Origin: Acidobacteriota bacterium
GTDB taxonomy: Bacteria; Acidobacteriota; JAAYUB01
Assembly: GCA_016935015.1 (NCBI GenBank)
Contig: JAFGRT010000180.1
Span: 1 to 34,163 of the forward strand
Length of the DNA: 34,163 bases
Direction: 5' to 3'
Numbering within the stretch: the stretch's first letter is position 1; each line of letters opens with the position of its first letter. Below are positions 13,474 through 18,100 of the stretch, one piece after another. The translations under genes and the position numbers were made by a program. A model generated the notes under the pieces. It was not told the origin of the DNA and made no database searches. It saw only the letters and a list, made by a program, of their open reading frames with translations.

Positions 13474-13550
13474 TGGCAGGCCAGGAGGGATTCGAACCCC
13501 CAACATCCGGTTTTGGAGACCGGCGCTCTACCAGTTCGAGCTACTGGCCT
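13474..13550 (-). tRNA. tRNA-Trp (anticodon CCA)
   Basis: Complete cloverleaf on the minus strand. The acceptor stem AGGCCAG pairs with CTGGCCT, the D-stem is GCTC/GAGC, the anticodon loop CTCCAAA lies between CCGGT and ACCGG, and the T-arm has GGTTCGAATCC. The discriminator is G and the 3' CCA is encoded. It sits between rpmG and secE, as in many non-enteric bacteria. Confidence 0.96.
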
Positions 13551-13560
13551 GCAATCGCTC

Positions 13561-13710
13561 TTATTTCGTTTCCTTGTGCAGTGTATGCTGCTTGCAGAAG
13601 CGGCAGTACTTCTTGAAGCTGTACTTGTCGACGTGCTTCTTCTTGTTCCGCGTCGTCGAATAGTTCTTGTTCTTGCAATCCGAACACTGCAGATGGACTT
13701 TTTCACGCAT
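13561..13710 (-). CDS. rpmG: Ribosomal protein bL33
   Basis: Small large-subunit protein of 49 residues. It begins MREKVHLQCSDCKNKNY and ends HTLHKETK. Two CxxC pairs (C9/C12 and C36/C39) make it the zinc-binding (C+) form; many bacteria also carry a cysteine-free copy elsewhere. The reading frame is short but complete, with ATG at 13710 and TAA at 13561. It lies 27 bases after tuf and 10 bases before tRNA-Trp. The ribosome site is weak (AGG about 9 bases upstream), so it may depend on translation of tuf. Confidence 0.96.
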   Translation of the reverse strand: MREKVHLQCSDCKNKNYSTTRNKKKHVDKYSFKKYCRFCKQHTLHKETK

Positions 13711-13737
13711 GGGCCGATACCTGTCTCTTCCGATCGC

Positions 13738-14928
<1,191 letters not shown>

Positions 14929-15004
14929 TGTTCATATCCTCCAGAATCTTCAATTAATAATTCCTTTTATCTCCAGTTCTTCCTTCGTCATCCCTGGTAG
15001 AGGA

Positions 15005-15079
15005 TGGAGCCCACGACCAGGATTGAACTGGTGACCCCTTCCTTACCAAGGAAGTGCTCTACCCCTGAGCTACGTGGGC
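15005..15079 (-). tRNA. tRNA-Thr (anticodon GGT)
   Basis: Cloverleaf on the minus strand with acceptor stem GCCCACG/CGTGGGC, anticodon loop TTGGTAA between CTTCC and GGAAG, T-loop TTCAATC, discriminator T and encoded CCA. It is fourth and last of the tRNA run before tuf, and its place matches thrT of the E. coli cluster. Confidence 0.96.
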
Positions 15080-15103
15080 TCACTTGCTGAATAAAAGGCT
15101 TCT

Positions 15104-15180
15104 TGGAGCGGGAGACGGGATTCGAACCCGCGACCCTCAGCTTGGAAGGCTGATGCTCTAGCCAGCTGAGCTACTCCCGC
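15104..15180 (-). tRNA. tRNA-Gly (anticodon TCC)
   Basis: Cloverleaf on the minus strand with acceptor stem GCGGGAG/CTCCCGC, anticodon loop CTTCCAA between TCAGC and GCTGA, T-arm GGGTTCGAATCCC, discriminator T and encoded CCA. It is third in the cluster, matching the place of glyT in E. coli. Confidence 0.96.
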
Positions 15181-15269
15181 GCGTATGCGGTTCAGACTCG
15201 ATTAAGGATGAGGTCATGCGAGCAAATCCTGGTCTCTCCCTCAACCGACTTAACCTCGCCTTGAATTCA

Positions 15270-15357
15270 TGGTGGAGAGGGGAGGATTCGAACCTCCGTA
15301 GGACCTAAGCCCGGCGGGTTTACAGCCCGCTGCCATTAACCACTCGACCACCTCTCC
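15270..15357 (-). tRNA. tRNA-Tyr (anticodon GTA)
   Basis: An 88-base class II tRNA with a long variable arm. The acceptor stem is GGAGAGG/CCTCTCC, the anticodon loop CTGTAAA lies between GCGGG and CCCGC, the T-arm has GAGGTTCGAATCCTC, the discriminator is A and CCA is encoded. It is second in the cluster, matching tyrU in E. coli. Confidence 0.96.
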
Positions 15358-15391
15358 ATGATATCGGGAATGCAAATAACACGTTCTTTTC

Positions 15392-15467
15392 TGGAGCTGG
15401 CGAGAGGACTTGAACCCCCAACCCGCTGATTACAAATCAGCTGCTCTACCGATTGAGCTACGCCAGC
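15392..15467 (-). tRNA. tRNA-Thr (anticodon TGT)
   Basis: Cloverleaf on the minus strand with acceptor stem GCTGGCG/CGCCAGC, anticodon loop TTTGTAA between GCTGA and TCAGC, T-loop TTCAAGT, discriminator T and encoded CCA. It is the first gene of the superoperon, starting about 8 bases after the predicted transcription start. The place matches thrU in E. coli. Confidence 0.96.
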
Positions 15468-15611: not shown

Positions 15612-17525
15612 TCATTTTTGTGCAGACGTTCGGCCACCGGCGTAGACCGCGCCCAGCGCCCCGTTATACTGCGGATCCGGTGGTACCACGATCTCCGCGA
15701 AATCCGTCCCCTGGCCCAGGAATTTGCGAATGGCCCGGTTGTGGGCCACGCCACCCGTCACCACCAGCACACGCGACGGCAACGCCCGCAGATCGGGCAA
15801 CACGCGCTGGAAGACGGAGAAATTGATGCCGGCGCAGATCCGCTCCAGCGGAACGCCTTCCACAATCTTACCCACCACTTCTGATTCTCCAAACGTGGCG
15901 CAGGTGGCGTTCAACGGTTCAGGGTCGGCGGAGTAGAGGCCGAGTTCATGGACGGCGATCCCCAGCAGGCGGGCCATGTTTTCGAGGTAACGGCCGCTGC
16001 CGGCGGCACAGCGGTCGTTCATGACGAAGTTCTCCATCCGCCCGTCAAGCACAGCGATCACCTTGGTGTCCTGACCTCCGATATCCAGCAATGTGAAGTC
16101 TTCCAACCCGAGCTGGTATCGGGCTCCCTGCAGGTGGGCCTCCAGCTCGGGGATGATTTCCGCCTGGTCAAAGCGGGCCAGATGCCGCCCGTAACCCGTG
16201 GTGTAGAGGCGCAGCCCGTCCGCTGGCAGCGGCCGGGCGAATTGTGTCCGGAACCGGTCGGCCAGCCGCTCCCGGCTGAGGGACAAGCACCCCCCGGCCC
16301 GGTGGGCGAAGGAATGATAGAACGCGATGGTGTCGAACATTTCGCGTCCGACGATTTCATCACCCAGCAGCCAGATCAGCTTGACCCAGCGACTGCCGAG
16401 GTCGATCCCTACACGCAGGCTGGCCGGAGCGGATATGGCCTCGCGCCGCCGGTCCGGACTCGTGCCGGCGGCGGGCGAAGTGGCTCGGGACACATACGGA
16501 CCTTGTTCGACGGCGTGGGGAGTGGCCACGCATTCCGTCTGCCGGGCGGCAAGCATGCCGATAAAGTTCTCCAGCCGGGTTTCGTCGCGCGGACTCAACG
16601 GGCCAGGGGTATCGGCCTCCAGGGTCAGCACGGGTACCGGCAGCTCACGCCGAAATATCTGGTCCTCCAGATGATGAAAGCAGAAGGTCTGCACATAGTG
16701 AATCAGCCCGGCCAGACGGCGTTCCGTCAAGGCGTGACGGATATCCGCCACCCGCCCGAAGACGGAATAGGGATACGTGTATTCCCGGTACTGCGCCAGC
16801 AGGTCCGCGGCGGGGCGACACATGGCGAACTGGCGCTGAACCTCGTTGAAGACGATGCGACCACCCAGGGCCTCGGTTTTCTCATACAGGTCGTCGATCA
16901 TCGTCGGGACCCCGACGTACCCCAGTCGTACGCCTTCAGACGGCGGGACGCGTCCGGCCGCCTTGTGGAGGAAATCCCGCAGGTCCGCTTCGAACGCCGG
17001 TGGTTCACCGTTCATATCCGAACCGGACACCAGGTACAGGTGATTTTCGAAACCGGACACCAGACCTTCCCGCCAGGTGAGCTCGTCCAGCTGTCGCAGC
17101 ATGTCCCGGATGGGGGTAAACCGTCGGCGGACCTCCTCGGCCGCCGCCAGCGTGGTATCGAGCCGCCCGGCCAGTCGAGCCAGCTCCGCCTGCAGAACGT
17201 CGGGATCGCGGTCCAATGGGTAGGCGAAGGGGATGACCTCGATGCCCCGCTCTCTCAAAATCAGGCCCGTGGCGTCGGAGAAACTGCAATCCCCCTGGAC
17301 CACCTCAATGACGGAGGCAAGCCCCTGCACCAGGGCGGCGACCAGAATTCCCTTGTTCCAGCCGCACACCGTCCGGGGCAGACCGATTTTTTCGGCCTCC
17401 ACGGCAAAATGTCGGCGGTCCTCATGGGTGATGAACACGTTGTTCAGGTCCACCGGGACGCGCCCGGCGGCGTAGACGATCTCGATGGGCACCGTGGTGG
17501 TGATACCGATGCGGGCACTGTTCAT
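15612..17525 (-). CDS. Fusion of 2-hydroxyacyl-CoA dehydratase/double-cubane-type protein with its BadF/HgdC-type ATPase activator
   Basis: A 637-residue iron-sulfur protein. Residues 1-340 resemble the HgdB/FldC-type dehydratase fold (PF06050), with candidate cluster cysteines at C54 (VCGWNKG), C80 (QGDCS) and C282 (QTFCFHHLED). Residues 370-637 are a BadF/BadG/HgdC ATPase: phosphate motif GIDLGSRWVK at 373-382, DIGGQDTK at 481-488, the interface cluster cysteines C506 (NDRCAAGSG) and C542 (ATCATFGESE), and adenosine motif GGVAHN. Such activators use ATP to drive a low-potential electron into the partner. Here both would share one chain. No second dehydratase subunit or CoA transferase is nearby, so a double-cubane cluster reductase role is as likely as a 2-hydroxyacyl-CoA dehydratase. 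The ATG at 17525 overlaps the upstream stop as ATGA, which fixes the start. The linker (340-368) is Pro/Ala/Arg-rich. Confidence 0.85.
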   Translation of the reverse strand: MNSARIGITTTVPIEIVYAAGRVPVDLNNVFITHEDRRHFAVEAEKIGLPRTVCGWNKGILVAALVQGLASVIEVVQGDCSFSDATGLILRERGIEVIPFAYPLDRDPDVLQAELARLAGRLDTTLAAAEEVRRRFTPIRDMLRQLDELTWREGLVSGFENHLYLVSGSDMNGEPPAFEADLRDFLHKAAGRVPPSEGVRLGYVGVPTMIDDLYEKTEALGGRIVFNEVQRQFAMCRPAADLLAQYREYTYPYSVFGRVADIRHALTERRLAGLIHYVQTFCFHHLEDQIFRRELPVPVLTLEADTPGPLSPRDETRLENFIGMLAARQTECVATPHAVEQGPYVSRATSPAAGTSPDRRREAISAPASLRVGIDLGSRWVKLIWLLGDEIVGREMFDTIAFYHSFAHRAGGCLSLSRERLADRFRTQFARPLPADGLRLYTTGYGRHLARFDQAEIIPELEAHLQGARYQLGLEDFTLLDIGGQDTKVIAVLDGRMENFVMNDRCAAGSGRYLENMARLLGIAVHELGLYSADPEPLNATCATFGESEVVGKIVEGVPLERICAGINFSVFQRVLPDLRALPSRVLVVTGGVAHNRAIRKFLGQGTDFAEIVVPPDPQYNGALGAVYAGGRTSAQK

Positions 17526-18100
17526 GACGAACCTCCCGCTGCGGCCGCCTCGGCCGCCCGGATCCGCCGGCACAAGAGCTGGTACACCCGCCGCTTCCCC
17601 CGGTGATAGCGGCGGCGCCAGCGGCGAACCTCCGGCCCGCTGTCCAGATCACGCACGATCTCCTCGAAGGAACGTGGCCGAGCGGTAACGTCCGGAAATC
17701 GGCGGCGGAGTTGCTCAACGGACGGATCGGTCAGCGCTTCGTCCAGCAGCGTTTCATGAACCTGCCGGAAGGCCATTTCCAATTCCGGCAGGATGTGGGA
17801 CGTTTCCACGGGATTGTAAGGAATGCTGACGATGTCGAGGCCGAGGACGGCGAACAGCCGTAAATAGCGGGCAGTGACTTCGTCCGGACAGATCTTGCGG
17901 CGCCGCCCCATGCGGACCTCGAATCCCCACAGCGCCTTTTGTACCCGCGCCGGGGTGATGCGGCCCAGCAGCTCCACCCGGCGCCGGGGCAGCGGCAGCA
18001 CCCGGGCGGCGTACACTTCGTCCAGACCGGGACCCGGCAACTCCGCCAGCAACCGGCTGGCAAAACTCGTGGATCTCTGGGGGGATTGCGCGGTCTTCAT
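17522..18100 (-). CDS. Hypothetical protein translationally coupled to the dehydratase-activator fusion
   Basis: About 192 residues; I do not recognise the family. It has no signal peptide, membrane helix or cysteine cluster (one Cys in RRKICPDE and one near the end). It is rich in Arg and Leu, with a mixed alpha/beta core around RYLRLFAVLGLDIVSIPYNP and helical segments after it, and an Arg-rich basic C-terminal third ending in an Ala run. The stop overlaps the next gene by ATGA, so the two are probably made together, and it may be a partner or electron-transfer adaptor for that enzyme. The ATG at 18100 is chosen because the protein-like composition begins there. The frame stays open to 18385, but the added part has low-quality composition and would run through the glnN control region. 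The ribosome site (GGGAG, 12 bases away) is weak. Confidence 0.65.
   Translation of the reverse strand: MKTAQSPQRSTSFASRLLAELPGPGLDEVYAARVLPLPRRRVELLGRITPARVQKALWGFEVRMGRRRKICPDEVTARYLRLFAVLGLDIVSIPYNPVETSHILPELEMAFRQVHETLLDEALTDPSVEQLRRRFPDVTARPRSFEEIVRDLDSGPEVRRWRRRYHRGKRRVYQLLCRRIRAAEAAAAGGSS

Follow-up and report, generated by a model that had tools for sequence, protein, structure and literature searches.

Gene A encodes what is probably an independent small basic α/β protein, inherited vertically as a single copy, found beside varied operons and perhaps binding nucleic acid; it does not form a conserved redox pair with the fusion gene that follows it (hereafter F). The gene occupies 17522..18100 on the reverse strand of the window, the 34,163-nucleotide stretch of Acidobacteriota DNA that was analyzed as a whole. 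Its 192-aa product would stand alone and act on its own, and the gene would have come to lie beside different operons in different lineages, preceding F in the window genome by chance. A preliminary description of this DNA had instead read the overlap between A and F as a sign of matched production and had suggested that the pair, if conserved across genomes, would define a two-gene redox system. The existence of both genes and of the overlap is borne out by the analysis, and so is the novelty of the A family, but the conservation of the pair is not.

Gene A and its family

The A frame is translated from an ATG and ends with a TGA that is read on the plus strand as tca (17522-17524). Its start codon is provisional: the open frame extends to 18385, which makes the start the least certain boundary of the gene. 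That the frame is protein-coding follows from homology, with relatives in the same family and profile matches across the phylum. The Arg-rich character recorded in the preliminary description is plain, with 16.7% Arg, a net charge of +13 and a calculated pI of 10.9, and is a trait of the family at large, in which the medians are 12.2% Arg and a net charge of +10. Positive net charge is found in 70 of 72 family sequences, with a mean pI of 10.0. Upstream of A, on the opposite strand, lies a gene that we take by eye to encode a type III glutamine synthetase.

A single-sequence search among 60 relatives returned clear homologues, including three genomes of the same family at 47-52% identity. Weak matches from this type of search in two further genomes (G017 and G036) failed to be confirmed by the family profile and were set aside. 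The profile, built from 11 members, detects A in 82 of the 396 Acidobacteriota genomes searched and in 45 of the 210 genera; a single match is the rule, and only G321 has two. Among the carriers is the culturable species Pyrinomonas methylaliphatogenes (locus L154). The two copies in that genome (L064 and L065) come from an assembly with a contamination estimate of 8%, so one of them may derive from another organism. When GTDB was scanned with the degenerate pattern CPDxxTARYL, 121 relatives of A were confirmed, and the best 80 of these 121 are all from Acidobacteriota. A scan of the GTDB contigs with the single A sequence gave no confirmed match, while a profile scan succeeded, and no relatives of A were present in the plasmid and viral collections. 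The family thus appears so far to be known from Acidobacteriota alone, with absence outside the phylum judged from the GTDB pattern scan.

The preliminary description could not place the protein in any family, and the profile searches agree. No convincing match to Pfam or NCBIfam was obtained for 30 diverse members, PADLOC gave no match among the three members scanned, a profile sequence search of the PDB returned nothing convincing, and no literature on an A-like family was found with the terms tried. Judging from its relatives, A is a real, conserved protein family that has not been described before. Its core signature, CPDEVTARYL, spans residues 71-80 (17861..17890, reverse strand), and the P, D, A, R, Y, and L of this motif are near-invariant over 71 members. 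The full family signature reads Y..V...RTR...L.GR....I..TLLG.E.K.G..R..CPD..TARYL..FA.LG...V..PYDPT and is followed by a basic helical tail. In a phylogenetic tree the window protein groups with the copies from its own family (support 99/97, the bootstrap being not fully settled), and the tree broadly tracks families. A is inherited vertically and is kept nearly always as a single copy. At L083 and L084 the open frames are long, 375-389 aa, which raised the possibility that A is fused there to a further domain. L083 shows no such domain, and a start called too far upstream in GC-rich DNA is the likelier explanation.

The fusion gene F and its overlap with A

F (15612..17525, reverse strand) encodes a protein of 637 aa and is, as the preliminary description had it, a fusion enzyme: a single chain combines an HGD-D (2-hydroxyacyl-CoA dehydratase D-type) domain with its ATP-dependent acyl-CoA dehydratase activase. 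The HGD-D domain covers residues 10-325 (16551..17498, reverse strand) and matches PF06050 with an E-value of 8e-20 and a score of 72 bits (cut-off 28.4). The activase domain covers residues 371-627 (15645..16415, reverse strand) and matches TIGR00241 with an E-value of 6e-48 and 163.5 bits (cut-off 125.4); activators in the PDB match it at 1e-34. Residues Cys54, Cys80, and Cys282 of the HGD-D domain align with those of E. coli YjiM and of unfused HGD-D proteins, and the retention of these three family cysteines makes F plausibly functional.

Both domains are those of the 2-hydroxyacyl-CoA dehydratase and double-cubane systems of the YjiM-YjiL type. F differs from these in carrying the two in a single chain and in having no adjoining second D-type subunit; the window genome contains one HGD-D match in all. 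Members of the HGD-D/activator family pass single electrons to a [4Fe-4S] cluster at the expense of ATP, and the same activity is predicted for F by analogy with its family. We know of no dehydratase/activator system of the YjiM-YjiL type that includes A. Just behind F, the window carries a reverse-strand run (13474-15467) of tRNA-Trp and tuf followed by four consecutive tRNA genes (Thr, Gly, Tyr, and Thr).

The two genes share an ATGA stop/start overlap at 17522..17525 on the reverse strand, the ATG of F being read on the plus strand as cat (17523-17525). Does this overlap tie the two proteins together? The overlap would couple translation of A and F by ordinary termination-reinitiation. F also has a ribosome-binding-like site of its own, so A need not set the level of F: a strong Shine-Dalgarno-like GGGAGG (assigned by its consensus; 17532..17537, reverse strand) is embedded in the last part of A and precedes the ATG of F by 6 nt. 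The frequency of such overlaps also speaks against a special relationship. Overlaps of −4 join 13 of 95 same-strand pairs that include A (14%, excluding the A-F pair of the window and one pair from its family, in G002, that the gene caller missed) vs. 31 of 278 other pairs (11%), where the background consists of same-strand pairs with conserved genes in the A loci. In these overlaps A is paired with upstream HEAT genes at six loci, with nuoN and with an f21 gene at one locus each, and also with the iron-sulfur gene S discussed below, with glycosyltransferase genes, and with another gene. A therefore enters −4 overlaps at about the background frequency and with unrelated partners, and the overlap with F is best read as translation coupling and not as proof of partnership. 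The −4 overlap is in any case the commonest arrangement of unidirectional gene pairs; close or short-overlap pairs are enriched for heteromeric complexes, and about 70% of close pairs in E. coli encode no complex (PMC10666635). An ATGA overlap alone is poor ground for inferring partnership, as A itself, which overlaps unrelated genes across lineages, illustrates.

Neighborhoods of A across the phylum and within the order

Neighbor genes were clustered in the stretches around about 70 other A homologues. An HGD-D or activase gene adjoins A in 0 of these ~70 neighborhoods, and the window is the sole case of such an arrangement. The preliminary description had itself named the consistent occurrence of homologues away from activator genes as evidence against its proposal, and at the scale of the phylum this is what was found. 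F is known in only about 3 of the 396 genomes (the window genome, G004, and G005, where it is a contig-edge fragment) vs. 82 of 396 for A, and the two are accordingly not co-inherited; in G017 the D-type part occurs alone, without the fusion. Four genomes that have A (G001-G003 and G013) contain no HGD-D gene. With A-F adjacency confined to the window, the proposed conserved redox system has to be abandoned, whereas the recognition of an unplaced family holds.

The neighbors of A vary widely instead. A lies behind nuoN in f21, f11, f69, and others, and behind etfA in two genomes of f32. In f10, f20, f52, f60, and others A is convergent to dnaK or to hspR-dnaJ-dnaK. In f28 it comes after a RodZ-like and a HEAT-like gene, and in f59 and f83 it precedes a family-9 glycosyltransferase gene. 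At single loci the upstream gene is presumably trpB or miaB, as named by eye. In many of the loci in which A lies behind nuoN, A is followed by a gene for a class-I glutamine amidotransferase protein (for example L067:6869-7798), the product of which resembles the glutaminase part of GMP synthase. At L105:4430-6846 the RodZ-like gene, the HEAT-like gene and A form a conserved row that converges with hspR-dnaJ-dnaK, with a 4-base overlap between the HEAT-like gene and A; loci L100, L108, L109, L111, and L112 are arranged alike.

This variety underlies our preference for an independent protein, although two features of the neighborhoods count against independence: within the order the neighbors (F and S) are non-random, and in several other lineages A ends nuo or etf operons. 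The second of these could be accounted for if A were a general accessory of respiratory and electron-transfer complexes, among them NDH-1, ETF, and F/S, as its place directly after nuoN in many Blastocatellia-type loci and after etfA in two, besides its association with F and S, would suggest. We nevertheless consider such a role improbable. A second large half of the family lies with genes that play no part in redox chemistry, namely dnaK/hspR, rodZ-HEAT, and glycosyltransferase genes, and about four-fifths of the searched genomes of the phylum lack A, although bacteria commonly have a nuo operon.

Within the order of the window, which is sampled by six genomes, the picture is more suggestive. 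S is a small GlcF-like protein with a two-[4Fe-4S] ferredoxin segment. In the sister genus (G001-G003) A is followed by S, the two being joined by ATGA; in the sister family (G004) F is followed by S with a 4-base overlap, and in G005 the end of F is followed by S on a contig-edge fragment. The arrangement of an HGD-D/activase fusion with an overlapping two-[4Fe-4S] protein behind it can be inspected in two genomes of the order at L202:3893-6522 and L222:259-1456. S shares its two-[4Fe-4S] segment with the Fe-S subunits of the GlcF/GlpC type, and its best NCBIfam relative is GlcF (2e-14 and 1e-13), far under the equivalog cut-off of 333 bits. Unlike GlcF/GlpC, neither form of S has a Cys-rich domain detectable by Pfam, only ferredoxin-type domains. 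Searched with the S of G004, each of G001-G003 yields only the gene adjoining A, and searched with the S of G003, G004 and G005 yield only the gene behind F. Because the two forms resemble each other in the ferredoxin part alone, their descent from one ancestral unit is likely but falls short of proof. In the window genome the S of G004 detects no counterpart.

The A-F, A-S, and F-S adjacencies are thus seen in one genus each, and together these three edges suggest one ancestral A/F/S cluster, albeit from few independent events. Could the products of the three genes work as a single unit in this order? F would then be an ATP-driven injector of low-potential electrons fused to its acceptor, S the electron feeder and A an assembly or docking factor, and an ancestral A-F-S cluster would have lost S in the genus of the window and F in the sister genus. 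All three edges involve ATGA-type or other overlaps, and short overlaps are in general enriched for heteromeric complexes (PMC10666635); the reciprocal searches reach only those S genes that adjoin A or follow F, and both forms of S have the same ferredoxin-type composition without a Cys-rich domain. Against this, the six genomes supply just a few independent events, the likeness of the S forms extends to the ferredoxin part only, and the full set is broken up in several ways: A lies on a different contig from F-S in G004, A and S occur without F in G001-G003, and A and F occur without S in the window genome. No A locus beyond the order shows neighbors of this kind. We regard a single unit of this kind as rather unlikely, and give a local functional link among A, F, and S inside the order, as read from gene order, the same tentative standing. 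The earlier suggestion that A works with the fusion enzyme therefore survives in part, as a plausible link within the order, and falls at the scale of the phylum, where the neighbors vary.

Predicted fold and candidate activity of A

The conserved α/β core of A, residues 20-120 (17741..18043, reverse strand), is predicted by AlphaFold2 as a block with pLDDT mostly above 90, the mean for the whole window protein being 79. A compact relative of 123 aa is predicted with the same core at a mean pLDDT of 95.1 and a pTM of 0.87; its chain passes through a helix, four strands, a second helix, a further strand and finally two helices. Foldseek found no match at E ≤0.001 for the window protein among PDB structures and viral models, or for the compact relative in the PDB, the best PDB E-values for the two models being 0.4 and 0.66 with query-normalized TM scores of ≤0.25. 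A new fold is therefore a possibility for these models, as judged against the PDB and viral models. The most frequent of the weak PDB matches were RiPP recognition elements such as MccB and PbtF, with a PqqD-like winged fold. They recur as top matches of A and are the weakest structural lead, but at E-values of 0.4 or worse, TM scores of ≤0.25 and probabilities of ≤0.2 the match is too weak to make A a relative.

It is unlikely, in our estimation, that A is a new-fold assembly or docking factor of an undescribed A/F/S system, recruited in one order from a family that serves other complexes. Whatever its activity, A is kept in about one-fifth of the sampled Acidobacteriota genomes, and this retention, together with a confident core unlike solved structures in Foldseek searches and absence from the main family libraries, makes it a fair target for structural and functional work in an under-studied phylum.

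For the independent protein that we favor, binding of nucleic acid, either RNA or DNA, is the leading guess, held with less than even confidence. It draws on the high positive charge, on the conserved Arg, Tyr, and Asp residues and on a Type IIG-like methylase that ends in the same domain; counting against it are the lack of any Foldseek relative and the restriction of the methylase fusion to one genome. The predicted α-β-β-β-β-α-β order, a strand with E-x-K/R/Q, the invariant PD and the methylase fusion would be compatible with a degenerate or permuted nuclease-like domain, but PD-(D/E)XK nucleases place the D and then (D/E)xK on successive strands. In A the invariant PD comes after E-x-K, the reverse of that order, the K is not conserved and is often Q or R, and Foldseek gave no significant match to any nuclease, so that we hold a nuclease-like domain to be very improbable.

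The methylase, of the Eco57I family, is encoded at L025 by an ORF at 85-2355 that is probably cut by the contig start. Its C-terminal domain is the same domain as A, which itself stands alone, and occupies residues 615-755 (L025:1927-2352), with a profile match in G026 of about 125 residues at an i-Evalue of 5e-19. In this form CNS stands in place of CPD, and GxE lacks its E.
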